The notes: generated from the letters alone by a model not told the origin. A stretch of 64,000 bases of DNA from an uncultured Clostridia bacterium (GCA_944381185.1 CALWKE010000001.1:372001-436000); one strand, 5' to 3'; shown: positions 46,501-64,000, counted from the first letter of the stretch. Made by a program: numbers and translations.

Positions 46501-48036
46501 AATACTGCAAGCAAAGCTTAATGCGTCGGCCTGTTCTTTAAATGAATAACTTCCATAACCTGTATATCCATAAGGAATATCGGCAAGATACCATTTCGCA
46601 ACTTTATAAGTTGTGTCGTTTTGCAATCTATCTAAATTATAACTCGGTGCAGATTTATCAATAGTAAACTTGCTTATGGTTGTGTTGCCTGCAAGGTCAG
46701 TTATTGTAACAGTGTAATTGCCTTCATCAGTTAGCCAAGTTCCACTTGTAAGTTCTTGTGTAATTCCATTGAAAGTGTAGGTTGCAACTTCTGGACTTTC
46801 GGTTGCTTCATCGTATGAAAACAGTATTTGCACTTCATCTTTAAAAATGCCTTGATTTATTGTTTGTGTTTTTGCACCATTTGCGTTTGTAGTTATTGTG
46901 CCAATTTTTCTTGTATCAAAAGCATTTTCATTATGATAAGCAAAATCTATTTCTGGCAACTCTGTATCCACCATACAATAGTAAGTGGTGTAAACATTTT
47001 CGGCCCCATTTTCAATTGCAACTTTGGTATATCCTTCATCGCTTATTTCAATGTGATGACCGTCCTTATAAGGGACTACACTTGTTCCGTATTGCGGGGT
47101 TGCTTGCACATCATTTATCTTCACATAGTTATTAAGGTTGCTTGCAATAACAGTGAATGTCTTAGGCGAATAGTAGGCGGTTCTTCCATTGTAAATCCCT
47201 TTGGTTGCGTTAGAAACAAGCTCATTGACCCAATCTCGTTCGCCTATTGTGATATAATTTGTCAAGTTGGCCGAAACAGATGTATCTCCACCCGTGTTAC
47301 CCCAGAATGTATTTTTATATTGTCCTGTCGCACTTAAATTAACTGCAAGACAATCATAAGTGTCAGCGTCAGTATTGTAAGTGTCGTCATACATAATAGT
47401 TACAAGTGTGCGAGTTTTATCTGTTGGATTTTCTGGCAAATCATAAACCATACTCATAGTGCCTGTCGCGTCAGAAAAATAATAAGTGCATTTTAACTCG
47501 GCACCACTTTTAAATTTAGCTTGTTGGTCAGTCCATAGGAAACCTGCGTTTGATTTGATAGGCAACTTCGTTTCAATGGAATAAATATAACTTGGATAAT
47601 TTACGATTTCATCAGCAAGATTTGCTTTATCTGTTGAAACATCTAAAATACCATCGTCATCATAAATCACACGCCCATCAGTTCTCATAATTCTAAAATA
47701 TCTTATAAAGGAAGCATATTTAAAGCCATTCCAACTTTTGGAGTCGCGAACAACATTATAAACGCCTATGGATTTATAAGCTCTAAGTGCGCCACTTGCA
47801 TATGGGCTATCGGCAGAAAGATTAGAGTTTGAATAATCAACTGTTATATCGGGACCTAAAACAACACCGGGATTTAATGGGTCATCAAGTCCAACAATAG
47901 GTCCAATAATCACTCCCATTGTAGAGCTTCCACCACGCCTTATGATTGTAGCGTGTCCAGTTGCAACAAGTATGAAAGGTATTAAACAAATTGCACAGAG
48001 TAAAAACAGTGAAATTCGTTTTAGTGTTTTTCTCAT
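43600..48036 (-). CDS. Large cell-surface protein with Ig-like repeats
   Basis: 1478 residues, exported and membrane-anchored. A signal peptide (about 5-29) leads to a unique region of about 400 residues. Repeated Ig-like units of about 80-100 residues follow, each ending in a strand such as AGNTTISKFTIDKSAP or NTLYFTFTIDTTPP, seen about nine times. A single transmembrane helix (GPSIAVLAGLGGLVVLLIVLLI, shown by position near 1405-1427) precedes a basic then very acidic cytoplasmic tail. The start overlaps the coupling-protein gene by four bases (ATGA). This placement inside the mobilisation operon suggests a role in donor-recipient contact or in shielding the donor; that is inference. Confidence 0.75.
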   Translation of the reverse strand: MRKTLKRISLFLLCAICLIPFILVATGHATIIRRGGSSTMGVIIGPIVGLDDPLNPGVVLGPDITVDYSNSNLSADSPYASGALRAYKSIGVYNVVRDSKSWNGFKYASFIRYFRIMRTDGRVIYDDDGILDVSTDKANLADEIVNYPSYIYSIETKLPIKSNAGFLWTDQQAKFKSGAELKCTYYFSDATGTMSMVYDLPENPTDKTRTLVTIMYDDTYNTDADTYDCLAVNLSATGQYKNTFWGNTGGDTSVSANLTNYITIGERDWVNELVSNATKGIYNGRTAYYSPKTFTVIASNLNNYVKINDVQATPQYGTSVVPYKDGHHIEISDEGYTKVAIENGAENVYTTYYCMVDTELPEIDFAYHNENAFDTRKIGTITTNANGAKTQTINQGIFKDEVQILFSYDEATESPEVATYTFNGITQELTSGTWLTDEGNYTVTITDLAGNTTISKFTIDKSAPSYNLDRLQNDTTYKVAKWYLADIPYGYTGYGSYSFKEQADALSFACSIERQNCVTEYYLENIEDFTNTHLIASGNEVKVGKYWYYKSRENPNLYVYYFDKNSLNEAINYYAKDFVSDEQIYKQNSSIYPNNYGNTIDESVYDNIVEVKGVKAYLATNFIFRQTDTNESYKIYCDYQKGGPEEWLELQYNIALKNQLTTHGLYKIKEVDYVGHSTTYFVYLDLQSPMVDFEAKVYGSDKTISQSISINDIPQNGELVFYYEDFSITQIIEDDKWWTMEIRLPNGTTQRYTYLDTLPNFDKLGSGEYAISVADRTNTAFKFKVCLLGTAPEVIFENINSNTALQVTINNTDDTNIITDIKIYRNDICLNSNIGYDEFPDDDTNELIFISPNTLSYTFHRGGIYIVELTDNYGRTLTYEYKFEKDLPVGYLTGVSHNGKTNGNVMFTFDNSKYEAIATKNNELYIAEQEKNNNVANLYFYPEENTEFVYIITLIDRTDTENYNTYKFTIKTIKPIINLFGVEPNGKTGGSVYATWEQNDEQYTARYTLNGNTQEYRKGQILTVAGSYTIKLSDELGNTSYVNFTIDKTIDFTIADISGNTYKIEDIEFINFGIRILEDEPLNITIKKDNSQIDYEFGLIISDEGFYSVTLVDEFNNTLYFTFTIDTTPPVATLYGVKNFGTTSKSAWVASMESGLTCYYILDDVKFEYKLGTELKASGNYKVFVEDRAKNVTTFEFAIDNTIAYDINTYHGGISNGGVRIIAYENLRIVMYKDGQPFDYSFEQILNEDGEYSFTLVDDLGNKTSSFFSIITKKQKNLSHILQENISVKSITKNDEIYQLELTENKLYLYDEGEYKVTILDENFNKEYSFEITIDTTPPTLELVGVTNGGTTKKVVIMKNVSEEPYSIYITVDGIPFEYKLGDEIEKSGQFIVVLTDEAGNSTTYTFERLYSLNGPSIAVLAGLGGLVVLLIVLLIKSRHHYYKDEIVEEEIEETVIEDNFLDDNPESDENSENDEQN

Positions 48037-50183
48037 TTTATTAACCTCATAATTTGTTCAGCTTTAATTCGTATATTTTTCAAATCTTTATCTTCTTCAT
48101 TTAATTTTTCTAATCCGTTAATAAAATCACATATTTGTTTAAAATCTTTGTTTTCTATTGCTTTTAAAATAGAAAGTTTAACTTCAAATGCTCCATATTG
48201 CTCAAAATCAAATTTTTCAATTTGAATTTTAAAATTTTCAATAAATGGAGCTATTTCTGCATAATTATTTTGTTTTTTTGTTGAATTTTTGCTTTTATTT
48301 CGGTCTAACATATTGTAAAAGACTTTTTCTTCGTTGAAATACTTCCCAGCAGAAAGTAATTGATTTGTCTTTTCAAGCACAAAATATTTACTCTTAAAAC
48401 TTGGTGTAAATTTTGACTTGATTGGCGGAAATCCAAAGACATTGACTATTGCATTGCCCATATTATTTGCACTGTTTAATTGTTGTAATTCAGTTGGGTA
48501 AATAAGTGGTCTTTCTTTAACACTTACAGAGCTTCCCATACCATCATTTGAAGATGAAAAGCTAACATTTCTTTGAATTATTGAGAAATTTCCACATTTT
48601 TTAGAAAATTCTTCAATTGTTTTCAAGTCTGTTGTTCCAATAAAAATTTGGATATTACAGTTTGATTTGATAATATCTGCGCTTTTGTCATCGTAAACTT
48701 TTGCCAGTTGTGCATAGGATTGAACTACAAGTGCAAGCCAAATTTTTCGGCTTCTACCAACAGTTATCATTTGTTCGAGTTTGTGGACTTTTGGCAAGTT
48801 TCCAAACTCGTCAAGCAGAAAATAGACACTTCTTGGCAAAGATAAATCGGGATATGTGTTTGCTTTTGCGACAAGGGCTTTATATGCTTGCAAAATAACC
48901 ATTGCCGCTAAGGTGTGCCTTGTCTCTTTTTCATCTGGAATTTGCAAAAACAGAGCAGTGGGTTTTGTTGCAATATCTCCAAAGTTTATTTCATTTGCAG
49001 ATGTAAGAGAACAAATGCTCATATCTGCGAATAATGAGAGTTTATCAAAGATAGTAGAAAGATAAGAGCCACGAGTTTTATCACTGGCATCTAATACTTG
49101 TTTTGACAAACTAACACTCTTTGAGATTGGGCTTCTATGCTGAAAGTATTCCATAAGGTCCTCACAATCATTTTGAGTGTTGGTTGCAATCTTCATTATA
49201 TTAAAGAAATTAAATTTTTCTTTTGTCATACCAAGCTCTGGATTTTCACTATCTTCAAGCATAGCAAGACATATTGCAAGAATAAAATTCTTGGCGCCAC
49301 TTTCCCAAATTGGCTCGCTTTTGTTTGTTACAGGGCACAGAACAGAACAAATATCGTTTAAGTCCTCATAAACTTCATCAAAAATTTCTTGTTTTCTAAC
49401 TTGCACAGCAGAATTTTTTTCATCTTCGTTATAGTAAATTTTATCTTCAAATACATAATAGCCTTCTTCTTCATTTATCCTAACCTTGTCACCAAGTGAA
49501 AGCATTTCTTGATACATCTCAAAAGGTCTTTCAAGCGGGTTCCACCTAATTGAGCAATAAGGGTTTCTTAAATCAAGGATTTTGACTTCATATCCACGAT
49601 TTATAAGGCTTTTTGCGTGCAGGGAATATAATTCACCTTTCGGGTCGGAAATGAGCATTGACGGTCGATTTTGAGTATTTGAGAGTATTTGTATTGTTGG
49701 ATTGATAAAAGTTGTTGTCTTACCAGAGCCAGTTGTTCCTATGATAAGAGTGTGAGCAGGTTTTGAAAAAGTTATTTCATAACCTTTCTTTGTTTCTTCA
49801 GCTTTTATCGGTATCCCTTCAATATCCGTATTTGGCAGTTTGCTATATTCAACGGTTTTAAAGTTTTGTTGTAATTCTTTGTCCGTTTGAAAGTGTGCTT
49901 GTTCAAGTCCAGTGTATATTTCTTTGTCCTTTTCAGTTGCTGTCATAATCTTTTTAGGATTTTTACCCACACCTTTATACCAAGCGAAAACAAAAATAAG
50001 AGATATTATTGCAAAAAATTCAAAAGTGTAGAGCCAAGTTTTGCCATTTAAGATTAGTGCAGTGTCAAAAGTAAATTCCGCTTTAAATCCACTTGAAACA
50101 AACATATTGACAAGATAGCCAAAACAAAAACAAATGATGAATAAACTTGCAAATAGCAATAGTCTTTTAACAAACTTATTCAA
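48033..50183 (-). CDS. VirD4/TraG-type coupling protein
   Basis: Conjugation ATPase of 716 residues that brings the relaxase-DNA complex to the secretion channel. Two N-terminal transmembrane helices (about 7-30 and 50-70) are followed by Walker A IIGTTGSGKTT (Lys155) and the family box MLISDPKGELY. Walker B is FLLDEFGNLPK (about 443-453), and the TraG signature GRSRKIWLALVVQSYAQL follows. It overlaps the relaxase gene by 8 bases upstream and the surface-protein gene by 4 bases downstream. Element A lacks an equivalent. Confidence 0.93.
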   Translation of the reverse strand: MNKFVKRLLLFASLFIICFCFGYLVNMFVSSGFKAEFTFDTALILNGKTWLYTFEFFAIISLIFVFAWYKGVGKNPKKIMTATEKDKEIYTGLEQAHFQTDKELQQNFKTVEYSKLPNTDIEGIPIKAEETKKGYEITFSKPAHTLIIGTTGSGKTTTFINPTIQILSNTQNRPSMLISDPKGELYSLHAKSLINRGYEVKILDLRNPYCSIRWNPLERPFEMYQEMLSLGDKVRINEEEGYYVFEDKIYYNEDEKNSAVQVRKQEIFDEVYEDLNDICSVLCPVTNKSEPIWESGAKNFILAICLAMLEDSENPELGMTKEKFNFFNIMKIATNTQNDCEDLMEYFQHRSPISKSVSLSKQVLDASDKTRGSYLSTIFDKLSLFADMSICSLTSANEINFGDIATKPTALFLQIPDEKETRHTLAAMVILQAYKALVAKANTYPDLSLPRSVYFLLDEFGNLPKVHKLEQMITVGRSRKIWLALVVQSYAQLAKVYDDKSADIIKSNCNIQIFIGTTDLKTIEEFSKKCGNFSIIQRNVSFSSSNDGMGSSVSVKERPLIYPTELQQLNSANNMGNAIVNVFGFPPIKSKFTPSFKSKYFVLEKTNQLLSAGKYFNEEKVFYNMLDRNKSKNSTKKQNNYAEIAPFIENFKIQIEKFDFEQYGAFEVKLSILKAIENKDFKQICDFINGLEKLNEEDKDLKNIRIKAEQIMRLIK

Positions 50184-51348
50184 GATAGCCTTCTTCCCTT
50201 AATCTCTTGTAGTTTGCTTCTTCAAGTCTTTCTCTATATTCCGCAAAAGCATTTACAATTTCCTTATTAACCAAGTCATTAAGTTGCATACACTTGTTGA
50301 TGAGTATTTTTCTTTTTTTCTTTTCTATGTGTTTTAATATTAACCTATTTCTTGTTTCGTAATTAAATTTATTCTGTTTGGTCTTAATATCTTTGGCAGC
50401 AAGAATGACAATGTTTCCAAGCCTTCTATAAAGGTCCTTCATACATTTTTCGTATAAGAGTTTATCCGAACAGTCAACCTTGATTTTTGCATAGGCTTTA
50501 AGCAATTCCGTATCCCTTTTTGAAAGGATATGCTCAAAGTCGCTAACTTTTCGTTTTAGCTCTGGATTTGACACAATTATAGACTTCACAATATTGTCAA
50601 TCATCGGCCTATGTTCAGCCATATTTTCGCTATCATAAGACAGTCGTCCTTTAATTGGCAGAACAATAATAAGTTTATTTATTTTGTTCATATAAGCTCC
50701 GTCATTAAATGATTTTTTCAATAAATTTGTTATTTCTTTTCTATTTTCAAAAATATTAAAATTTCTACTAATAAAATATTTTTCTATATCAATTTTAAAT
50801 TGATTTATTGCGTCAATATCAATATAACCGTCCGAAAATTGCTTAAATCTGCTACTTTGCTTATACCTAAGGGGCTCTTTTTCAAAAAATGAAAAGTGAA
50901 TATGTTTGTTGTCTGTGTTCTCGTGAAGTCCAGCAAACCAAACAATATTTTCTGGGTCAAGATTTGCATTTTTGAAAAATTTGGGTAGTTGGCTTTTCAT
51001 CAGTTCATAAGCTTTTTCGTATGTGTCGCAATTTACATTTCCAAAATACTCTGTAAAGGATATAACACCATGCCAAATAGTGCTCTTTGTTGTTCTTAGA
51101 TTAGTTCTCAATTCTTTTATTTGTTCTGCATTTAATAGGCCATTTTTATTAAAAATGCCTTTACTTTTCTCGTTATTTCCAGAATAGGCGACATAATCTA
51201 ACTTTTCCTTACTACCAGTGTTTACATATTTAACATAGTCATATTCCTTGTTAGAACTATAAAATCTTCTTGCTTCAAGGTCTTTTGATACTGACTTATC
51301 AAGATTTTCAACATAGCCTAAAAAGAGATTTACATTTGGAACACTCAT
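50176..51348 (-). CDS. MobL-type relaxase of element B
   Basis: 390 residues, homologous over most of its length to the relaxase at 24424-25620. The histidine motif is GLHENTDNKHIHFSFFE (about 136-152), and the Tyr-rich N-terminal segment ARRFYSSNKEYDYVKY (about 26-41) is shared. It overlaps the accessory gene by four bases and the coupling-protein gene by eight. The tight packing of mob, relaxase, coupling protein and surface protein genes indicates one transcript. Confidence 0.87.
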   Translation of the reverse strand: MSVPNVNLFLGYVENLDKSVSKDLEARRFYSSNKEYDYVKYVNTGSKEKLDYVAYSGNNEKSKGIFNKNGLLNAEQIKELRTNLRTTKSTIWHGVISFTEYFGNVNCDTYEKAYELMKSQLPKFFKNANLDPENIVWFAGLHENTDNKHIHFSFFEKEPLRYKQSSRFKQFSDGYIDIDAINQFKIDIEKYFISRNFNIFENRKEITNLLKKSFNDGAYMNKINKLIIVLPIKGRLSYDSENMAEHRPMIDNIVKSIIVSNPELKRKVSDFEHILSKRDTELLKAYAKIKVDCSDKLLYEKCMKDLYRRLGNIVILAAKDIKTKQNKFNYETRNRLILKHIEKKKRKILINKCMQLNDLVNKEIVNAFAEYRERLEEANYKRLREEGYLE

Positions 51349-51785
51349 TTTTTACTATATGTTTTTAAAATTTCCTCAAAAATCTCTTCAAGTCGTTCTG
51401 GCAGGTCATCATACATTCCCGCTTCGACAAAATCTTTCTTTCGTGGAGCATTGTCAGAGATTCCAAGCAACATATTGTAATTGCAAGATAAGAGTTTTTG
51501 ATTGACAATGTTATTTGCCACCATTTCTTTTGCATTATCTTCGCTTTGCTTGATAAGGTCATTCAATCTCTCGGCAGTGTTGTGGATTTCCTCATAAAGT
51601 TCGTCTAAGTTTTGAATTTTCTTTGCTCCGTCTAAATCTCGTTCAAGAGTTTCAACGCCCTTTGTTAAACAAGCAACCAAGAATTGATTTTTTGTTGTAA
51701 AGAAATCATCATATCTTTTATAAAGGTCGCTAATTCGTTTTACAAGTTTGGCGTCATAAATTCTAACCGTGTATTGTTCTTGCAT
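51345..51785 (-). CDS. Mobilisation accessory protein (MobC-like)
   Basis: 146 residues. The N-terminal segment QYTVRIYDAKLVKRISDLYKRYDDFFTTKNQF (about 4-35, by position) fits a ribbon-helix-helix domain, followed by a long helix (about 60-95). It stands in the same place as 25613-26071 in element A, directly before and overlapping the relaxase gene. Probably a relaxosome protein; the call rests mainly on context. Confidence 0.6.
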   Translation of the reverse strand: MQEQYTVRIYDAKLVKRISDLYKRYDDFFTTKNQFLVACLTKGVETLERDLDGAKKIQNLDELYEEIHNTAERLNDLIKQSEDNAKEMVANNIVNQKLLSCNYNMLLGISDNAPRKKDFVEAGMYDDLPERLEEIFEEILKTYSKK

Positions 51786-53966: not shown

Positions 53967-56045
53967 TTACTCTACACCCAATGCTTTAAATACTGCATCT
54001 TCTGGGGTATTATAAAACAACAATGTAATAGAGTTTAATAAATCATCTGGCACATCTACCAATTGCTTTTTTGCATTATTTGGTAGTAAAACTTTCGTTG
54101 CTCCTGCATCGTGAACAACCTGTAATACATTTGCAAGTTCTTCAATACGGTTGATTGAGCCACTTATACTAATACTTCCTAAAACTGCAAGCTTTGGCAA
54201 AACTTCTTTCTTTAAAGCAGCAGAAGATAAGGATACAAGTGTTGCAAGAGATAAATCTTTCGCATTGCCAACACCTTGTAAATCTCTATAATCCATTAAG
54301 TAATCAGATAGTGTGGTGCTTATATTTGCGCTTATATGCTGTTTATTGGCTTTAAAATAATTGATTGCATTGTTTATGCTATCTTTACACTCTTGATTTG
54401 ATACACCCGTTCTTGTAAATTTTCCAGTGCCAGAAACGCATTCGTTTTCAATTCTATAAACGCCAAAAACACCAGTTTCTGAGCGTTCCACACAATAAAC
54501 TGTTCCCGGCTTTGTTTGTCCTTCTGGTATTAACTTATCACTGCCTTGTTCTGGAACACCAACATACTTTTCTTCAAATGTTTCGTTGTCTATGTATGAA
54601 AAGTTGACAGCATAGAATTCCATTCCACCAATTCTTTTAAGCTGTTCTTTAACTCTTCTTCGACCTTCAAGAGCATATCTTAAAATTTCTTCCAACTGTT
54701 CCTTTGTAAAATCTCCATTTGGATATAAAATTTTAACAAGTCCAGACACAGTTTTTCTTACTGCAACAGTATCTCTTTGATTTAATGTATTTCCAAGCTT
54801 AAAATACTTATCTAAGGCGTCCGAAAAGTTATATTTTCTCATAGTCCTAAAAAATTCAGACACATAATCCGTAACAAATCCATATTCGTCAGTAAAGTAT
54901 TTTGGAGCAAACTTTGGGACTTCCCAGCCCGGGATATAGTAGTGCATTCTATCGAAGAAAGCAGTATCATTTGCCATAAGCTCTGGGAATGGTTGAAATA
55001 GATTAGATGTTTTTAACAAAACATCAACACTAATATTGATATTTCCTATAAATACCATAGAAGCACTAGCTGTTATTTGGTCTTTGCCACGAGCAAATGA
55101 GCCAGAGTTCATATAATCTTTCATTATTTGAATTCCGTCTTTCTCTTTAAACTGAATTCCAGCAACTTCATCAAAAGCCACACAATCCCAATGCCCAACA
55201 AGTCCAATTTGGCGTCTGCCCATATTGTAAAACAAGTTTGCAACCGTTGTTTGTCCACCAGAAATCAATATTGAATTTGGCGAAATTTCTTTATAAACGT
55301 GAGATTTACCAGTAGAACGTGGACCAAGTTCGCATAGATTATAATTATTTTCAACAAGTGGAACCAACCTCTCAATTAAGTGCATTTTTTCTCTTGGTTT
55401 AAGTTGTGTTGGTTCCATACCAATTGACCTTAAAATCAAGTCTTTCCACTCTTCAATAGTGAATTGTTTTCGACCTTCAAATATTTCATTTATATCAAGA
55501 TTAGGCATTTGTATAGGTTTTATACTTTCAACAATCAAAACCCCGCCCAAATCTTTATCCTTGTCTTTTCTCTTTACTTCTTTTGCGGCTGCTTCAAGGT
55601 CTTCGTTCTCGTTTTCGTTAAAATATCCAAGCTTAACAATACACCAAATTCCGCCTGCAAGTAGTTTCTCAAATTTTTTCACATACTCGCCAGAGATTGG
55701 TATTCTTACTAAACCCAAATTCATTAAACTTGCAAAACAAATACCTTTTTCTACATCAACAGTAACATCAACTCTGTCAATGACAGTATAAGAGCCATTT
55801 TCAGTTATTTTGAATTTAACTTTTTCTGCTTCATCTGGACGAACATAATTTTCTGCAAGTATCTTTTTTACTTGTTTTACGCCTTCTTTAGTGCTATCTT
55901 CGTCATCGGTAGAGCAATACATTCCAAGTAAATATTCAAGGACATAAATAGGAACATTTATTCCTTCTTTAATCTTTTTTGATAGGTCTTTTCTTACAAC
56001 TCTACCTGCAAAAACTTCATTAACCTTTTTATCAAACTCGTTCAT
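53967..56045 (-). CDS. brxL: BREX Lon-like protein BrxL
   Basis: Last gene of the type I BREX operon, 692 residues. An N-terminal DNA-binding region (about 1-200) precedes an AAA+ domain with the unusual Walker A GPRSTGKSH (about 240-248) and acidic motif DCVAFDEVAG (about 277). A Lon-protease-like C-terminal domain follows (VGVPEQG..., then AVLGSISISGSI near 630). BrxL forms ring-shaped hexamers on DNA and is required for phage defence in type I BREX. It is 9 bases downstream of pglZ with its own GGAGAT. Confidence 0.95.
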   Translation of the reverse strand: MNEFDKKVNEVFAGRVVRKDLSKKIKEGINVPIYVLEYLLGMYCSTDDEDSTKEGVKQVKKILAENYVRPDEAEKVKFKITENGSYTVIDRVDVTVDVEKGICFASLMNLGLVRIPISGEYVKKFEKLLAGGIWCIVKLGYFNENENEDLEAAAKEVKRKDKDKDLGGVLIVESIKPIQMPNLDINEIFEGRKQFTIEEWKDLILRSIGMEPTQLKPREKMHLIERLVPLVENNYNLCELGPRSTGKSHVYKEISPNSILISGGQTTVANLFYNMGRRQIGLVGHWDCVAFDEVAGIQFKEKDGIQIMKDYMNSGSFARGKDQITASASMVFIGNINISVDVLLKTSNLFQPFPELMANDTAFFDRMHYYIPGWEVPKFAPKYFTDEYGFVTDYVSEFFRTMRKYNFSDALDKYFKLGNTLNQRDTVAVRKTVSGLVKILYPNGDFTKEQLEEILRYALEGRRRVKEQLKRIGGMEFYAVNFSYIDNETFEEKYVGVPEQGSDKLIPEGQTKPGTVYCVERSETGVFGVYRIENECVSGTGKFTRTGVSNQECKDSINNAINYFKANKQHISANISTTLSDYLMDYRDLQGVGNAKDLSLATLVSLSSAALKKEVLPKLAVLGSISISGSINRIEELANVLQVVHDAGATKVLLPNNAKKQLVDVPDDLLNSITLLFYNTPEDAVFKALGVE

Positions 56046-56054
56046 ATTTATCTC

Positions 56055-58601
56055 CTATAAATCAAAATCATTTTCTATTAAAATATCAATAGTAAATGGT
56101 AGTTTTGTTCGTTCAGCATAACTATCATCATAATCCGAGATTACTAAATAATATTGCTTATTTTTGTCATATTTTTGATTTCTTAAAGTAAATTTTTCTT
56201 TACACATTCTGTCTTTAACATCTTCACTCTTGCTGTCGGCGTTGATAACAACAGAGTTTGAAATTCTTTTGCCTTCTTCATCTTCAAAGTAAACTTCATA
56301 ATTTCTTGGTAGCAATTTTTCACTTACTTTTTCGTTCTGGAAGAATTCCAAGAAAGTGATAAGAGAAGTAATTTTATTAGACAAAGAAACACAAGAAATA
56401 GTAACATTCTTTGCAGTATATTTATCTCTCTGTGAACGTCTGTTATCTATTTGTATAATTGGGATAACAATCTCTTGTAAACTATCTCCACCGTGAACAT
56501 ATTTTTTGCTTTCGCCTTGTTTTTTGTAAATATTTACACCATAAGGAATAACTACATTTATATCTGTATTTTTTATCAAGTAATCAAGAGAAATCTTCCT
56601 TGACATTTCTGGCTCAATTTTATCTTTTGTTAGGATAAATCTTCTCTTTGAAATTATAGAGTTTTCTATTTCATTTGGAGTTTTGTCCATTTCTTCAATG
56701 TCATTTCGCTTATATATAAATCCGTGGTCAGCAGTGATGATAATATTTGTTATTGAGAAATTTTGCAATTTCTTCACAATTGATTGAATTTCGTTAAAGG
56801 CATCTTCAACCCCAACAAAAACTTTATTTTCGGTTGATGTTTTATCACCCATAGCATCAATGGAGTCGTGATATATATAAATTACTTTTTGTCCTGCAAT
56901 CTCGGATTTAATTCTTACTGAATTTTGTGGTTTATTAAATTCTTCAAATTTATAAACTTTTCCTTCTACAAAGGTGTTTAAAATCTTTTCTCTATTTTCT
57001 ATACTTGAAGAGTTTATTCCATCAACATAAACATCTGCTCCAACATATTCAATTTTGTTATGTGGCAATAAACTTGCCATTCCAAGAGCAGTGTAGCTTG
57101 GCAAAGTTGAAATAGCAAAATTTAAAACGGATTTTACTTTAAAAGCATTTGAAATTCTCTTGTTTAGTTCTTCGCCACATTCATATCTTAATGCGTCCGA
57201 AATAATAACTGCAATTTTTTCTGGACAAGTTTTTACAAATTTACTATAAAAATCCCATTGTTTAACTGCATTTAGATTTGTGTAGTTTATAAGCTTTAAT
57301 TCATTTGACCATTTAACAGAAAGTTCATTCAAATACCAATTTGTGTAAGTATTTTCAATTTTATTAAATAGTTCAGAGAAATCTTCATTTTCAGCCTTAT
57401 CATAGGCAGTTATAAACTCTCTATAATACTGGTCAAATTTAAAGTAATTTTTAACGTATTTTTCAAGTAAAATCTCCGAAGTCCCTTGTGGGAAAGTTTT
57501 ACTTTCTTCATCAACTTTTGATAAAAATTTACAAGCGTGGTGTAGTGTTTGATATTCATATTTTAATGTATCATTCCAATAAGATTTTCTTCTTTGTTTT
57601 ATAATACTTAAATATCTATCAAACTCTTTAACATTATCTGTCAAACAATCTCTAATGTTCCTAATAATGTGTAAATCATATCCAATGAATGTATCTACAT
57701 CTTCGTATGCTTCAATATCCCAATCTTTGGTTATCCTTTCAAATTGGATTTTTTCAGCAACTTTATTTGAAATTGCAACATAACTTTCTGCATAATCACT
57801 TTTCATAAATCTATCAACAAAGATATAAGCATTGTTTTTTATTGCAAAATTATTGGTGTCTGGTAGATTTATTTTCCAACTATTAGGCAATGGACTTTTT
57901 AAGTAAAGAGAAGTGTGAAGCAATAAAATATTTGTCATTAAATTATCAACATCTTCAAACGCATTTGTAATGCCAAATTTGTTCTCTACAAATGTGTCAA
58001 GAGTGTCGATGTCGCAGTATTTTTTAACTTCTTGTAGCAACTCGCCTTCATTTATATAATCAGACAAAAGACACATTAAAGCTTCTTCAAAATCAACAAC
58101 ATTAAGTTTGCAAACAGCACACAAAACTGCAATATGTATAATATTTTCATTCCATTTCTTAATATTGTAGGATTTTAACTTATTTCTTCTTTCTTTGTTA
58201 TTCAAAAAGTTTTTATATTTCTTTATAACATTTGCAAGAGCAGGGTTATCTATTCCAAACTCTCTCATATAAATTGTTGTAATATCAGCCTCAAATTCTT
58301 GACTATAAAGACAAATATCAAGTAAGTAATTGTCTTGTGGTTTTGGCTTGTAGAATGGGGAATAAATAAGATAATTTGATGTTAAATCAGTAACTTCAAG
58401 CGTAAATTTTATCTCAAAGTAGTTTTTACCCGTAAATTCCATAATTTTGGTATTTTCAAGGTCCAATTCTTCTAATTTATCTCTAAATTCGCCTTCACCA
58501 TCAAACCAAAAAACGACATTACGAACTTGACCATCTCGTGGCCTTTTGTTTAACATAATGTTTAATTCTTTTGATACTTCTTTAAAGTCTAATTTGCTCA
58601 T
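56055..58601 (-). CDS. pglZ: BREX alkaline-phosphatase-like protein PglZ
   Basis: 848-residue type I PglZ (type A). The N-terminal half is helical and unassigned. The alkaline phosphatase superfamily core contains IAVIISDALRYECGEEL (about 470-486, presumed metal/nucleophile region) and IIITADHGFIYKR (about 640-652, metal ligands Asp and His). It is a core component of all BREX systems; its enzymatic target is unknown. It lies 25 bases downstream of the coiled-coil gene. Confidence 0.95.
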   Translation of the reverse strand: MSKLDFKEVSKELNIMLNKRPRDGQVRNVVFWFDGEGEFRDKLEELDLENTKIMEFTGKNYFEIKFTLEVTDLTSNYLIYSPFYKPKPQDNYLLDICLYSQEFEADITTIYMREFGIDNPALANVIKKYKNFLNNKERRNKLKSYNIKKWNENIIHIAVLCAVCKLNVVDFEEALMCLLSDYINEGELLQEVKKYCDIDTLDTFVENKFGITNAFEDVDNLMTNILLLHTSLYLKSPLPNSWKINLPDTNNFAIKNNAYIFVDRFMKSDYAESYVAISNKVAEKIQFERITKDWDIEAYEDVDTFIGYDLHIIRNIRDCLTDNVKEFDRYLSIIKQRRKSYWNDTLKYEYQTLHHACKFLSKVDEESKTFPQGTSEILLEKYVKNYFKFDQYYREFITAYDKAENEDFSELFNKIENTYTNWYLNELSVKWSNELKLINYTNLNAVKQWDFYSKFVKTCPEKIAVIISDALRYECGEELNKRISNAFKVKSVLNFAISTLPSYTALGMASLLPHNKIEYVGADVYVDGINSSSIENREKILNTFVEGKVYKFEEFNKPQNSVRIKSEIAGQKVIYIYHDSIDAMGDKTSTENKVFVGVEDAFNEIQSIVKKLQNFSITNIIITADHGFIYKRNDIEEMDKTPNEIENSIISKRRFILTKDKIEPEMSRKISLDYLIKNTDINVVIPYGVNIYKKQGESKKYVHGGDSLQEIVIPIIQIDNRRSQRDKYTAKNVTISCVSLSNKITSLITFLEFFQNEKVSEKLLPRNYEVYFEDEEGKRISNSVVINADSKSEDVKDRMCKEKFTLRNQKYDKNKQYYLVISDYDDSYAERTKLPFTIDILIENDFDL

Positions 58602-58626: not shown

Positions 58627-59067
58627 TTAAATTATTATACCAACTATTGCAACAATCAACCCCACTACTGCAATTCCGGTCGTAAACCACCATTTTATTT
58701 TCTCTTTTTTAGCACCATTTTGATATTCAATAAACTCTGCATCTTTTTTATCATTTATTGTTTTTAACTCTTGAATTTCTTTATCTTTCTTTAAAGATAA
58801 ATTTTGCAGTTCGATGATTTGTTGATTTTGGTTTTCAATAACTTGATTTTGATTTTTTAATTGTTCATCTTGTTTTTGAATAATTGTATCAAAAACCTCT
58901 CCAATAGGTTCAATGTCCGGTATTTCAATAGGTTTTATTAAGTCCGAAATATTTGGAGCAATGAATAAATCACTTGGAGATATTCTAAAATTATCAATCA
59001 AATTTTTATAGTTAGTTCCACTTGTAAAATTCCCTAAATTATCATTTTTTTCATCATTATTTGCCAT
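58627..59067 (-). CDS. Tail-anchored coiled-coil protein within the BREX operon
   Basis: 146 residues that I do not recognise as a BREX component. A polar N-terminus with proline-rich DLIKPIEIPDIEPIGEV (about 42-58) is followed by a coiled coil rich in Gln/Asn/Lys (about 62-120: KNQNQVIENQNQQIIELQ). A single C-terminal transmembrane helix (about 127-146, WWFTTGIAVVGLIVAIVGIII) ends at the stop, so the protein is tail-anchored facing the cytoplasm. It sits between pglX C-terminal part and pglZ, with AAGGAG 6 bases before the ATG. It could tether a complex to the membrane. Confidence 0.75.
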   Translation of the reverse strand: MANNDEKNDNLGNFTSGTNYKNLIDNFRISPSDLFIAPNISDLIKPIEIPDIEPIGEVFDTIIQKQDEQLKNQNQVIENQNQQIIELQNLSLKKDKEIQELKTINDKKDAEFIEYQNGAKKEKIKWWFTTGIAVVGLIVAIVGIII

Positions 59068-59076
59068 TTCTGCTCC

Positions 59077-60108
59077 TTAAAATTTTAAGTAGGTTGAAAA
59101 GATGTTTTTATCTTTGTCTCCGTCAAGTTTTTGGAATTTTTGATAGTTGACTTTCACACCATCGTCAAGGTCAATTTGAATGTTCATATTGGAAGCGTGA
59201 TTAAGAATTTCATCATATGCTTTACATTCAAGTATTTGTTTATTGATAAGGTCAAGTTCCTTCTTTGCTTTTGCTTTTTCGGCAGTTATATTTGACTTTT
59301 CAATAAATTGTTCAAGTCTATCTTTCTCGTGTTCATATTTCCATTGAATATCGTGCAAATATGAAAGCCTTACAGTAGGAATAGTATTTAGGTCGTATCT
59401 ATGAAGATACATAAGAGCTCTAAATCCACCATATTTACCACTATCAAACTGCCAGTAAATAGGTCTGTTTTGATATTTTTTGCAATGGTCTTTAAAGAAA
59501 TCATTTGCAAGATACTCTCTTATCACATTTCTTGGTGTATCGTTAGATTTTTCATCAAGAGCATTTGCAATAAATCTTAAATTTTCTTCCAAACTTGATT
59601 GCCCAAAAATAACACTTATAAATTCAACAACCCTATCGACAAGACTAAATTCGACATAGTCATTGTCAGTGTTTACAATACAATTTTCATCATTTGGCAA
59701 AAAAGCATTTCTAACTGTTTTAATATTCTTGACTATTGATACATCTGGATTATTTAGTAAATTGAAGTAGTTGTCCCAATTGAAATCTCCACCCGCAAAT
59801 ATTAAGCCTTCTTTATATGGGCTATATCTACCAAAAACACAACCGACAATATATGAAATCAAATCTTTAATAACATCTTGTTTTGTTCTTACATAGATGT
59901 TACTTTTCATTTCTTCTGGAATATCTTCCTTTTTATCGTAAATTTTTGCAACTGTTATATCTTTATCAGCAACATTTGGTGTAAGTTCATCTTGCAAACC
60001 ATAAATTTCAATGAAGATTTTATTGAGTTCTTCTTCATTTTTCTTTAATTGGTCAAACCTTGCATTTACTTCATTTTTATAATTTTCGTATTTGTCTCTT
60101 ATTAACAT
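59077..60108 (-). CDS. pglX: PglX C-terminal part (separate gene)
   Basis: 343 residues corresponding to the last third of ordinary PglX. Diagnostic blocks are FDQLKKNEEELNKIFIEIYG and LQDELTPNV near the N-terminus, SYIVGCVFGRYS (about 90), RPIYWQFDSGK, ALMYLHRYD and near the end QIDLDDGVKVNYQKF. In standard BREX these follow directly after the SWDFKKNPL motif, which here ends the other part. The ATG at 60108 lies one base after the stop of the TIGR02391 gene, whose last codons hold its GGAGG. The two PglX parts together give about 1229 residues, the usual length. Confidence 0.92.
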   Translation of the reverse strand: MLIRDKYENYKNEVNARFDQLKKNEEELNKIFIEIYGLQDELTPNVADKDITVAKIYDKKEDIPEEMKSNIYVRTKQDVIKDLISYIVGCVFGRYSPYKEGLIFAGGDFNWDNYFNLLNNPDVSIVKNIKTVRNAFLPNDENCIVNTDNDYVEFSLVDRVVEFISVIFGQSSLEENLRFIANALDEKSNDTPRNVIREYLANDFFKDHCKKYQNRPIYWQFDSGKYGGFRALMYLHRYDLNTIPTVRLSYLHDIQWKYEHEKDRLEQFIEKSNITAEKAKAKKELDLINKQILECKAYDEILNHASNMNIQIDLDDGVKVNYQKFQKLDGDKDKNIFSTYLKF

Positions 60109-60109
60109 C

Positions 60110-60910
60110 TTAACCTCCACATTTAGGAACTAAAATACAATTATCTAAATAATCTTGTATATACGAAATAGTCATTAGCATTTTTATTGCTTCATTTTCA
60201 TCAATAATCCATTTAATTTTAGGAGTATGTGCTGTAACATTTCTAACCATCAAAAATACGCCTTTTAGCAACATACACAGCCCTTTTTGTTGATTTTTTT
60301 CAGCATCTGTCATTAAAGAATTGATTGCTAATACGGGTTTATCCACTGAGAAAACAGCTTCAAACAACGCCGCACCATCGCCAGTCAAACCAGTCATAGA
60401 TTTCACTTTATCAGACAATCCTTTGGCCGCCTCAAACACTGCGTGAAAATAATTTTCATTTAGTAATTCTTCATTGCAATAATTCAACACATTAGGATTA
60501 ACATTCATATTTTTTAGTTTAGAAACAATACTATTCACCCTTTTTCTTGCTTCACTTATTGTCTCGACTTTTTCTACAATCTCAAATTCTCCTTTATTGT
60601 TATATTTAAGACCTTCAAATGCAAGAATTTTGTTTATTGAGTCTATTGTCTGTTCAAATACATCTTCTTTATCAATAAAAGCTTCCGGCTGAAGAACAAC
60701 TTTTATAAATCTCAAAAAAGAATTTGATGAGTTGTCGTTTTGTGTTTTAAATAGAAATGTTTTATAAATCCTGCGCCATTTTGTTGATTCATTACTAACA
60801 TCTTCAACACTTATTGACTTTAACTTTTGTGTTAATTCACTTCCAGTAATAATTTCTCCTATAATGCGAGAGATTTTTTCAATCTGAACTTCTTTCAATT
60901 TAATTTTCAT
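60110..60910 (-). CDS. TIGR02391-family, HEPN-like protein inside pglX
   Basis: 266 residues. The C-terminal half matches the TIGR02391 (Ymh-like) family: YFHAVFEAAKGLSDKV, GDGAALFEAVFS, and LMVRNVTAHTPKIKW. The last contains R-x4-H (Arg223, His228), the HEPN RNase motif, in a helical context typical of that fold. The N-terminal half is helical and unassigned. It begins 12 bases after the pglX N-terminal part (AAGGAG before the ATG) and ends one base before the pglX C-terminal part. It is therefore a gene inserted exactly at the PglX domain boundary. Confidence 0.82.
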   Translation of the reverse strand: MKIKLKEVQIEKISRIIGEIITGSELTQKLKSISVEDVSNESTKWRRIYKTFLFKTQNDNSSNSFLRFIKVVLQPEAFIDKEDVFEQTIDSINKILAFEGLKYNNKGEFEIVEKVETISEARKRVNSIVSKLKNMNVNPNVLNYCNEELLNENYFHAVFEAAKGLSDKVKSMTGLTGDGAALFEAVFSVDKPVLAINSLMTDAEKNQQKGLCMLLKGVFLMVRNVTAHTPKIKWIIDENEAIKMLMTISYIQDYLDNCILVPKCGG

Positions 60911-60922
60911 CTTGCAAGCTCC

Positions 60923-63583
60923 TTAAATTAGTGGATTTTTCTTAAAATCCCAACTTGTTTCATATTGGTCCCAGTCAAGTTTTGATAATTTAATATTATC
61001 TTTTGATAAATTTATTATTTTCTCATTATTGTTATTGCTATAAACAATTGGAATATTTGCAATATTCCCAACTTGAAAGTTTAGTGTGGGTGCTAACACA
61101 CTCATAAATAATTTTATCAAACACGAATTGTTTAATCCTAATAAATAAAATAATTTATCTTCATCATCAGCAAAACAAGACATTCCTGCAACATCAAATA
61201 AAAAACCATTGCCTTTATATCTAAATGCTATATTTGAAGAAGAAATAAGAGACCACGATATACAGGGTTTAAAATAAAAATTTGGATTACGTAAAACTGC
61301 TTTTTTATCATTTCTCAATTGTTGTCCATCATTTTGCCAATTTATTACAAAATCATTATTACCATACCACTTTCTAAAATCGCCACCTTTATTATATGGA
61401 TACCATTTTAATTTTGGATTTTCTTTTGCTTCATTATGATTATTACAATTTAAAAACAATAAATTATTACAAATTTCATACCACAATCGGAGATATTTAT
61501 TATTATCTGCTGTTGCTATGCCTTGTTTAGGAGTTGCCTCATCTAAAAGTAAATTAGCAGTTTTAAAAATATTTACTACTTTCTCGCTTACCCAATAAGC
61601 TATTGGAGTCCCGGGTATTTTTGAAAAATTATTAGAATTAACTGAATATCTATATCCACAATTCCTATTTTTTATTGCTTCTAATGTTTTTGGCCCTTGC
61701 AGTTCTGGACCCTTAAATTGTTCAAGTCTAATAAATTCACCTGTTTCATTTGTTTTGCAATTTCTTAATGTAAATGTGCAAATAGGAACGACAGCTTCGG
61801 CAAATCCACCATATTCAAGTTGGACTAAACTTGTTATTGATTTTGAATTTATTATTCTTGTCCTTAATTTTTCATAACTTTGAATAAACATCCATACATA
61901 AGGACACATTATTCCAATTTGACCATTAGTAGTGGAATAATCCATATTTCTTTCAATGAAAGCAGAGAATAAATCCGACTTTGAATTTGGATAGTTTACT
62001 GCAAGATATTCACTTACATTTCCCGGCAACTTACTATTGCCTGCATAAGGTGGATTTGTAACTACGGCATCGTATTTTGAGCTTAAATAAATTGCTTGTT
62101 TTGTTAAACTCCTAAGCAATGGTTTTACATTATCAACAACCAACTTGTTAACCAAATCATATTGCTCATCTTCAACATTTTCTATCTGTTTTAATACAAT
62201 ATCATATTGTTCTGGGGTATATGAAAAATCTTTAATCAAACTCCCATAAAGTTCGGCATCTTTGAATTTCTCTACCAAATTTAACACAATTTCTTCATCT
62301 TGTGAGTTTAGGTTTGCAAGGAGAATAAAATCTTTAAGTTCTTGACTGTTTAATAAGTTACTTTCTTTAATATCAACAACATTTGGATAGACTTGTTTTT
62401 TCAAAAAGTCTTTATCATAACTAAGCGCTTTCATAGTAAGAGCGAAAGAAGTAAGTTGGGCAGCACGTTTATCAACATCAATTCCGGAAAGATTGTTTCT
62501 AAGAATTAGAGCAGGGATTTCGCTCGCTATATAACCACTTTCTTGATACATTTTAAAGAAGATTTCAAAGGCATAAACAAGAATATGTCCAGAACCGCAA
62601 CAAGGGTCAATAAATGTAATTTCTTTAACATTTTTTCTTGCATATTCTTTGTTTATTTCATCAAGTTTTTTCTTTACATCTTCCGTTTGTTCTGCAGGTT
62701 CGAGATAATATTTTAAATCTTTTTTTAAACTTGAATTTCTACTCTCAACCCACATCTTGCCAAGAGTGTTGTCAGTCATATATCTAACTATCCAATCTGG
62801 TGTAAAGATTTGAGTAGCAGCAGGAAGCGTTCCCTTTGTAATCTTAGTATTATTTTTAAGTCCAGCAAAAACATCTTCTTTCTTTTCAGAAATATAGTAT
62901 TGATAAAGCCAACCAATGATTTCAACTTGGCTTGCATTTTCACCGTCGTCATCTTTAACTGTTATATTGAAATCTTTGGCACTAATATCATTTACTAAAT
63001 GGGAAATGATAGCGTCATTATCAAGCAAATGGTCTGGTAATAAAAGTTCAACATAGTTATCAATTTTTTCAAACATCAAAGGCATAACTTTGTTAAGTTC
63101 ATTACATTGACTTGTTAAGATATACCTATAAAGTTCATTTGTTTTATTCTCGTCTTGATATTTATAAACTATTTCTTTGTCAACAAAAGATAACTTATCT
63201 GCATAAGTTATGGCATCAGGCTCAGATTTGCCAGCAGTGGTGGAGCCAATCATATAAATAACTTCACCATTTCTGCCATTTTTTAAATAACCGTTAACTT
63301 CCATAAAACGTAGTGCAACAATTCGGTTAAACCAAGTGTATGCGATTTCTTCAATAGCGTCTTGATAGCCTACTTGTTTAACTCTCTTAATAAAGTCATC
63401 ACGCATTTGTTTTTTGTAGTTAAAAGTCATACCATTAACAACAAATCCATTGTCTGTTTCAGCTTGAATTTGTCTTTCTGGCTTGTTTTCATAAACACCG
63501 AGCAAGTTCGCTCTGTCTGAAATTCTTTTAATGAGTTCGCGTCTTGCCCAGACTGCGAAATTTCTTAATGCAGATTTGTTCAT
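60923..63583 (-). CDS. pglX: PglX N-terminal part: BREX adenine methyltransferase core
   Basis: 886 residues holding the methylase and target-recognition regions of type I PglX. The SAM motif is FIDPCCGSGHIL (about 323-334), and the catalytic NPPY is in VVTNPPYAGN (about 512-521). The start ALRNFAVWARRELI is the family N-terminus. The protein stops right after WDQYETSWDFKKNPL, the motif that in other PglX proteins joins the recognition region to the C-terminal domain. The missing C-terminal domain is encoded at 59077-60108. All catalytic residues are intact. It lies 10 bases after brxC. Confidence 0.95.
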   Translation of the reverse strand: MNKSALRNFAVWARRELIKRISDRANLLGVYENKPERQIQAETDNGFVVNGMTFNYKKQMRDDFIKRVKQVGYQDAIEEIAYTWFNRIVALRFMEVNGYLKNGRNGEVIYMIGSTTAGKSEPDAITYADKLSFVDKEIVYKYQDENKTNELYRYILTSQCNELNKVMPLMFEKIDNYVELLLPDHLLDNDAIISHLVNDISAKDFNITVKDDDGENASQVEIIGWLYQYYISEKKEDVFAGLKNNTKITKGTLPAATQIFTPDWIVRYMTDNTLGKMWVESRNSSLKKDLKYYLEPAEQTEDVKKKLDEINKEYARKNVKEITFIDPCCGSGHILVYAFEIFFKMYQESGYIASEIPALILRNNLSGIDVDKRAAQLTSFALTMKALSYDKDFLKKQVYPNVVDIKESNLLNSQELKDFILLANLNSQDEEIVLNLVEKFKDAELYGSLIKDFSYTPEQYDIVLKQIENVEDEQYDLVNKLVVDNVKPLLRSLTKQAIYLSSKYDAVVTNPPYAGNSKLPGNVSEYLAVNYPNSKSDLFSAFIERNMDYSTTNGQIGIMCPYVWMFIQSYEKLRTRIINSKSITSLVQLEYGGFAEAVVPICTFTLRNCKTNETGEFIRLEQFKGPELQGPKTLEAIKNRNCGYRYSVNSNNFSKIPGTPIAYWVSEKVVNIFKTANLLLDEATPKQGIATADNNKYLRLWYEICNNLLFLNCNNHNEAKENPKLKWYPYNKGGDFRKWYGNNDFVINWQNDGQQLRNDKKAVLRNPNFYFKPCISWSLISSSNIAFRYKGNGFLFDVAGMSCFADDEDKLFYLLGLNNSCLIKLFMSVLAPTLNFQVGNIANIPIVYSNNNNEKIINLSKDNIKLSKLDWDQYETSWDFKKNPLI

Positions 63584-63593
63584 TTGTTACCTC

Positions 63594-64000
63594 TTATTTA
63601 ATGTTTATAATAATGTTATCTTTGACTTTTTCTTTTAATTTTGCTTTTAAATCATTTGCAAGTTTGTCAATATCATCTTCAGTTTCAACCTTGATAATTG
63701 ACTTTTCAAGAATTTCTCCAATAGATAATGAAACAGTTTTCTTAAATACTTTCTTTTCTATCTTTTTATTTGGATTTTTCTTGCGTTCTTCTTCATATTT
63801 TTGTTCATATTTTTCTTGCGCCCTATTGATTAAACTATCACGTAATCTTATAGCTTCTTCACGAACATTGTGAATTGTTGCGACAATTTGTGATTTTGTT
63901 GCTTTATCTTTAAGCATTTTAAATTGAATATCTAAGCCTTCCGCAGTTATTTCATACCTATTGTAAACATCAATAACTTCTTTAAGCATATCATCAATTT
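63594..64000 (-). CDS. brxC: BREX P-loop protein BrxC (C-terminal end)
   Basis: The frame is open through the right edge, so only about 135 C-terminal residues are seen. They match the end of BrxC: a charged helical segment (RAQEKYEQKYEEERKKN) followed by KKTVSLSIGEIL and a final unit ESDDIDKL-like TEDDIDKLANDLKAKLKEK ending in IIINIK. The ATPase part and, presumably, brxA and brxB lie beyond the window. The position just upstream of pglX fits the type I BREX order. Confidence 0.85.
   Translation of the reverse strand, partial: IDDMLKEVIDVYNRYEITAEGLDIQFKMLKDKATKSQIVATIHNVREEAIRLRDSLINRAQEKYEQKYEEERKKNPNKKIEKKVFKKTVSLSIGEILEKSIIKVETEDDIDKLANDLKAKLKEKVKDNIIINIK

Follow-up and report, generated by a model that had tools for sequence, protein, structure and literature searches.

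A type 1 BREX pglX gene divided in two, with a predicted HEPN gene in the gap and other candidate effectors recurrently found there

The window, i.e., the whole stretch of 64,000 nucleotides that was analysed (uncultured Clostridia bacterium, GCA_944381185.1, CALWKE010000001.1:372001-436000), contains a BREX operon whose genes all lie on the minus strand. Listed in the direction of transcription, with the end of pglX-N marked separately, its features are as follows:

63594..63989, minus strand: C-terminal end of BrxC (profile and PADLOC matches)
60923..63583, minus strand: PglX-N, 886 aa, with the N-terminal helical domain, N6-adenine methyltransferase, target recognition domain and first spacer helix (NF033452 positions 1-899 of 1210, 3.3e-289; PDB 8c45 residues 1-886)
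60929..61000, minus strand: conserved 72-bp hinge block at the end of pglX-N (DNA comparison with G081)
60110..60910, minus strand: predicted HEPN-fold TIGR02391 (Hypoth_Ymh) protein, 266 aa, PD-lambda-3 B-like, cargo in the PglX split, with R223-x4-H228
59077..60120, minus strand: PglX-C, with the second spacer helix, winged helix and coiled-coil C-terminal region (NF033452 positions 906-1210, 4e-104; PDB 8c45 residues 895-1213)
58627..59067, minus strand: 146-aa gene between PglX-C and PglZ, with a coiled coil and a C-terminal membrane helix as read from the sequence
56055..58601, minus strand: PglZ type A of BREX-1 (TIGR02687, 1.3e-175)
53967..56045, minus strand: BrxL (TIGR02653, 2.3e-302)

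Beyond the window, the same contig (684,889 bp) continues upstream with the rest of BrxC, then BrxB, BrxA and a WYL regulator (L197). The type 1 BREX operon is complete, with brxA, brxB, brxC, pglX (as two genes), pglZ and brxL all present. The 146-aa gene had no match in PADLOC and none above cut-off in Pfam; the gap between pglX-C and pglZ is a second variable slot, holding 146 aa in the window, 332 aa in G081 and 301 aa in L044. Near the operon, at 48033-51785, lie genes whose translations resemble a conjugation coupling protein and a relaxase, and judging by these the operon may be part of a mobile element or adjacent to one.

An earlier note on this DNA had described pglX as split into two genes with a HEPN-like gene between the halves, and the junctions confirm that description. 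PglX-N ends in SWDFKKNPLI and a stop codon, which is overlapped by a Shine-Dalgarno sequence (TAAGGAG) for the HEPN gene starting 12 bases after it. A second Shine-Dalgarno sequence, GGAGG, lies within the final HEPN codons, before ...TTAAGATG, for PglX-C, which could start at a GTG at 60120 (347 aa) or at an ATG at 60108 (343 aa); if the ATG is used, 1 base separates it from the HEPN stop. The reading frames of all three genes are intact.

The two halves jointly span the solved PglX, with about 8 residues missing at the break. Aligned with Salmonella PglX (PDB 8c45), PglX-N corresponds to residues 1-886 and PglX-C to 895-1213; for E. coli BrxX (PDB 9ewz) the ranges are 1-870 and 877-1193. Against the full-length profile NF033452 (cut-off 500 bits), PglX-N scored 962.6 bits and PglX-C, covering just 305 of the 1210 positions, 349.6 bits. 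Family matches of PglX-N include N6_Mtase and Eco57I, which predict methyltransferase activity. The published PglX structure has two long spacer helices at 850-960, between the target recognition domain and the C-terminal region (PMC11341690), and the alignment would place the cut in the loop that joins them, after the target recognition domain. Intact relatives have a variable loop at the same place, running from SWDF..PL to the LKANEEELN helix and mostly 25-46 residues long, the longest reaching 89 residues in L032 and 137 in G081. One published attempt to express the C-terminal domain alone, from about residue 662, failed (PMC11341690).

The earlier note had assigned the middle gene to TIGR02391 and pointed to an R-x4-H motif, and profile searches agree on the family; the motif is RNVTAH at residues 223-228. 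The match to TIGR02391 reached 105.6 bits against a cut-off of 39.45 (1.7e-30), that to Pfam Hypoth_Ymh 129.8 bits against 25 (5.9e-38), and that to PADLOC PD-Lambda-3_B, over residues 21-258, an E-value of 1.5e-60. No variation was seen at R223, N224, A227 and H228 across 22 homologues (31-48% identity) or in a set of 9 sequences, and the expected conservation of R-x4-H among relatives is thereby upheld. In an AlphaFold2 model (pLDDT 88.7) the motif comes right after a helix at 202-222, and the four best structural matches of the model in VIA-align are HEPN domains (Z 7.2-8.7 over 103-108 residues; the next match 5.1). A Z near 8 is modest for helical bundles, and a plain Foldseek search with the model returned no significant match. 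Profiles, conservation and model together make it very probable that the middle gene encodes a HEPN protein whose R-x4-H is conserved. Most likely it would act as a metal-independent RNase and serve as a linked second-line abortive effector; PD-lambda-3, the system of its B-like relative, behaves as an abortive system (PMC13190303).

Two more specific identities for the HEPN gene were rejected. PD-Lambda-3_A (PDLC03986) is absent from the window genome, in a search for which the control plasmid NZ_CP043384.1 was positive at 7e-101; a full PD-lambda-3 system is excluded on that ground, and the B protein may therefore need another trigger or be inactive alone. A HEPN-MNT toxin-antitoxin pair was dismissed because no nucleotidyltransferase antitoxin is adjacent, the neighbours matching PglX or, for the 146-aa gene, no such family. 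Nor does the gene look like an old resident of its lineage: no match was found in the other 196 genomes sampled from the window genome's family, so it looks acquired. Elsewhere, TIGR02391 genes occur on plasmids, in prophages and beside type I restriction-modification (RM) genes or restriction endonucleases, with no PglX close by, and none adjoined PglX in 45 viral-contig loci. Since the family is common outside BREX, its link to PglX could be chance cargo.

As cargo of a split pglX, TIGR02391 was seen only in the window and in one remnant, L114, from a Mycoplasmataceae MAG. There, all that is left of PglX is the tail of PglX-N, which ends in WDFKKHPLI and a stop; immediately after it comes a gene for a TIGR02391 HEPN protein 49-50% identical to that of the window, and the surroundings contain no PglX-C. 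The order at 121-2632 of L114 is an HsdS gene, the PglX-N tail remnant and the HEPN gene, and the MAG seems to read TGA as Trp. A recombination scar or a chimeric MAG could account for the arrangement.

The split itself is far more widespread. A scan of 84,980 species for the hinge followed by a stop (WDF[KQE]x[HN]PLx-stop) returned 74 stretches, most of them PglX-N ends; 12 lay outside PglX and were discarded as chance matches (L071, L073, L078, L082, L085, L086, L089, L092, L100, L102, L105 and L110). Run on 391 genomes belonging to the same class, the pattern matched 2, both with real splits, and the reversed control matched 0. A split locus was defined as a PglX-N or target-recognition piece ending at the hinge, with PglX-C as a separate gene. 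By this definition the scan, locus extension and a gene-order listing together gave 41 distinct split loci including the window, a lower bound and not a frequency, as the scan catches exact hinge motifs with a TAA or TGA stop only and some of the loci are closely related (e.g., L094 and L134). Cargo, i.e., at least one gene of at least 70 aa in the gap, is present in 37 of the 41 and missing from 4. The hosts include many Clostridia, Coriobacteriia (Collinsella, Adlercreutzia), Gastranaerophilales and one Planctomycetia MAG, and several records are titled as named strains (Ruminococcus callidus ATCC 27760, Pseudoflavonifractor An44, Faecalibacterium prausnitzii CNCM I 4541 and Collinsella aerofaciens D40t1); one viral contig (L151) also carries a split PglX. 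In an unbiased sample of the phylum, PglX-C was matched in 33 of 398 genomes, with a cargo-bearing hinge split in the window genome, G265 and G428 and a break elsewhere, without cargo, in 2 more. Of the gene order that the earlier note had put forward, the general form, a split PglX with cargo, is thus widespread, whereas the exact form with TIGR02391 is confined to the window and the L114 remnant.

Several features of these loci point to a two-chain enzyme. The PglX-C genes sit in tight operons and share a start motif, M.xLI[SA]DK[YF]...LKANEEELN, and in the 34 genomes checked PglX-C was matched in 29, in none of them inside a full-length PglX reading frame. In L101 (982-7243) and L070 (3-5047), two PglX-N genes that both end at the hinge stop accompany one PglX-C. 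In L200 (8473-4945, minus strand), BrxC, PglX-C, PglX-N, PglZ and BrxL are contiguous, with PglX-C upstream of PglX-N, an order that simple interruption cannot produce. The loci without cargo, the two PglX-N genes per PglX-C and the reversed order together indicate a two-chain enzyme and not decay. The earlier note's reading of an organised split, based on intact frames, gains from the recurrence in 40 other loci.

Some loci are more finely divided. In L072, L106, L140, L141, L146, L055, L060 and L063, spare target-recognition pieces (about PglX 645-886) stand in tandem, all of them stopping at the hinge, and five of these loci (L072, L106, L141, L146 and L055) also encode the methyltransferase part on its own, in a gene that ends near residue 620-650. 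These tandem pieces resemble specificity subunits that are stored or can be exchanged. Where neighbouring pieces matched exactly (100%) in DNA, the match was an artefact of overlapping flanks, and only similarities of 50-95 bp in the hinge region are real. One genome, G616, has two BREX loci (L144 and L145), both with a split PglX and little or no cargo.

Cargo was assigned by family profiles, partly summed over the set. Among 57 cargo ORFs, Pfam found HEPN pEK499_p136 (5), the nuclease DUF559 (3), Schlafen AlbA (3), DUF2971 (3), TIR (3), RhuM (2), AAA_15/21 (2), FRG (2) and others, and PADLOC found spbK (TIR) and the Septu proteins PtuA and PtuB. The largest cargo cluster, from 8 loci, is HEPN-like, with RN[AS]x[AH] motifs and partial matches to pEK499_p136. 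The motif RN..AH is present in 10 of the 57 ORFs, namely those of the 8-locus cluster, the one from the window and that from L045; shuffled sequences gave a mean of 0.04. The window's TIGR02391 gene had no significant match to the 8-locus cluster, so that different HEPN groups occupy the same slot. The model of a HEPN-like cargo protein from L117 was of low confidence (pLDDT 66) and was set aside.

A tree of 68 PglX-C sequences requires 7 changes between the split and intact states, and at least 6 of these are imposed by branches with good support. The majority of the split forms cluster with one another, but the window's PglX-C is paired, on a long branch, with that of the intact G081 (100/100), which points to an independent split in the window or to a refusion in G081. 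PglX of G081 (L006 / L050) is unsplit and has an unusually long in-frame hinge linker, the 137 residues mentioned above, which had no significant homology to any cargo; it is possibly a refusion. Between the window and G081, its nearest relative, PglX-C has a dN/dS of about 0.20, a ratio that indicates purifying selection on PglX-C. At the DNA level the comparison is a mosaic: the 72-bp hinge block is 83% identical, PglX-C 87% and the start of pglZ 99%, and the slot, most of PglX-N (about 41% protein identity) and the gene before pglZ differ. Such a mosaic suggests module exchange at conserved blocks.

The reading we favour, and consider reasonably probable, is a PglX made up of two chains, with the point of the split serving recurrently as a slot for linked effectors, in this case an abortive HEPN RNase. 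PglX-N would bring the methyltransferase and target recognition domain; PglX-C would add the second spacer helix, winged helix and coiled coil; and the chains would reassemble through the antiparallel spacer-helix hairpin, cut at its tip. With the loss of only about 8 loop residues, the hairpin tip would be a tolerated insertion point. The gap between the half-genes would then have become a recurrent slot for defence effectors, co-expressed with and translationally coupled to the BREX genes, and in the window it would hold the TIGR02391 HEPN protein as a second-line abortive effector.

The main rivals differ from this reading in how tightly the effector is tied to PglX. The earlier note had proposed a built-in abortive arm, which is plausible in that defence effectors turn up in the gap again and again and PD-lambda-3 B, the characterised protein closest to the HEPN protein, comes from an abortive-infection system (PMC13190303). 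In its BREX-gated form, the HEPN protein would be kept inactive by binding to the PglX spacer hairpin or by the PglX-N/PglX-C pair, and would be freed or switched on once PglX is inhibited (e.g., by an Ocr-like DNA mimic) or disintegrates. The cut is located in the hairpin beside the Ocr- and DNA-binding surface, the gap repeatedly holds effectors of abortive type (HEPN, TIR, Schlafen), and the window, whose split is apparently independent of the main split clade, nevertheless also has a HEPN protein. However, the cargo proteins show no sequence relationship to one another and no common domain with which they could dock PglX, homologues function or occur without PglX, and some split loci lack cargo, and we give gating a low but appreciable probability. 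At the other end, the effector may be passive cargo, carried between co-inherited half-genes with a trigger of its own and no functional tie to BREX, and kept because the BREX promoter expresses it and it travels with the PglX specificity module. The mosaic relative to G081, in which the slot differs between conserved flanks, the turnover of cargo between close PglX-C relatives and the presence of TIGR02391 alone elsewhere fit this account, but recurrent effectors and the repeated use of HEPN suggest more than neutral cargo, and we regard it as unlikely. It differs from the two-chain, effector-slot explanation mainly in degree.

The remaining alternatives would do away with a functional PglX or with the layout itself. 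Inactivated pglX genes do exist, PglX-N being in three pieces in L112 and the gene being broken at other points, without cargo, in L042 and L043, and the window's pglX might likewise have been interrupted by an insertion and now be a pseudogene. The intact frames, a start signal for each half, the conserved PglX-C start motif, purifying selection, the 41 loci and the reversed order in L200 make such decay very improbable. That the layout is an artefact of assembly or binning is scarcely credible: the window genome (94.67% complete, 5 contigs) is probably a MAG, yet 40 other loci share the layout, and several of these are in the named-strain records.

The two-chain reading has consequences beyond this operon. 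A core BREX gene appears to have been split into two genes that act in trans, probably on several occasions, at a single point that makes structural sense; judged from the cargo of the split slot, this point is a recurrent hot spot for effector genes. Recurrence of the same split layout with differing defence genes suggests that a core defence gene contains a standard site at which effectors dock. The hinge-plus-stop sequence provides a simple search key for BREX-linked effectors, including families without annotation, and it becomes testable whether BREX recruits abortive effectors as a back-up and whether PglX is assembled from exchangeable parts, which, if true, would aid specificity engineering. 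More speculatively, and in our view rather improbably, there may be a BREX branch with a modular multi-subunit PglX, made of a methyltransferase, exchangeable target-recognition subunits and a shared PglX-C, in which the spacer hairpin docks split-encoded effectors that are freed once PglX is blocked or taken apart, so that abortive infection would be set off by anti-BREX proteins.

Aspects of the split may have been noticed before: Goldfarb et al. 2015 reportedly noted irregular pglX genes, with duplications, inversions and premature stops, which were read as phase variation. The literature searched, which did not take in that study, held no description of a two-piece PglX with an effector slot. 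Compared with canonical type 1 BREX, with its single-chain PglX or BrxX (PDB 8c45, 9ewz), the window has the same core genes and operon, and its halves together align with nearly the whole enzyme; it differs in having two pglX genes where the canonical operon has one, cut in the spacer-helix hairpin, with an extra gene in the cut. A BREX survey (Nucleic Acids Res. 2026) describes auxiliary HEPN, Schlafen, PD-(D/E)XK and OLD/HNH nuclease effectors within BREX loci (PMC12839542). HEPN and Schlafen-type effectors inside BREX loci are thus common to that survey and to the loci described here, whereas the effectors described here sit between the halves of one core gene, and the survey's main text makes no mention of a split PglX. 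What appears to be new is the PglX split with effectors in the cut; auxiliary effectors in BREX operons were already known. The B protein of PD-lambda-3 (Vassallo et al. 2022) matches the window's HEPN protein over nearly its full length, but there its partner is A, and here its neighbour is PglX. Type I RM systems likewise have separate methyltransferase and specificity parts, HsdM and HsdS, joined by helical spacers, and some split-PglX relatives store spare target-recognition genes in tandem; the type I enzymes, however, are divided between the methyltransferase and the target recognition domain, whereas the window's PglX is cut after the target recognition domain and belongs to a BREX system.
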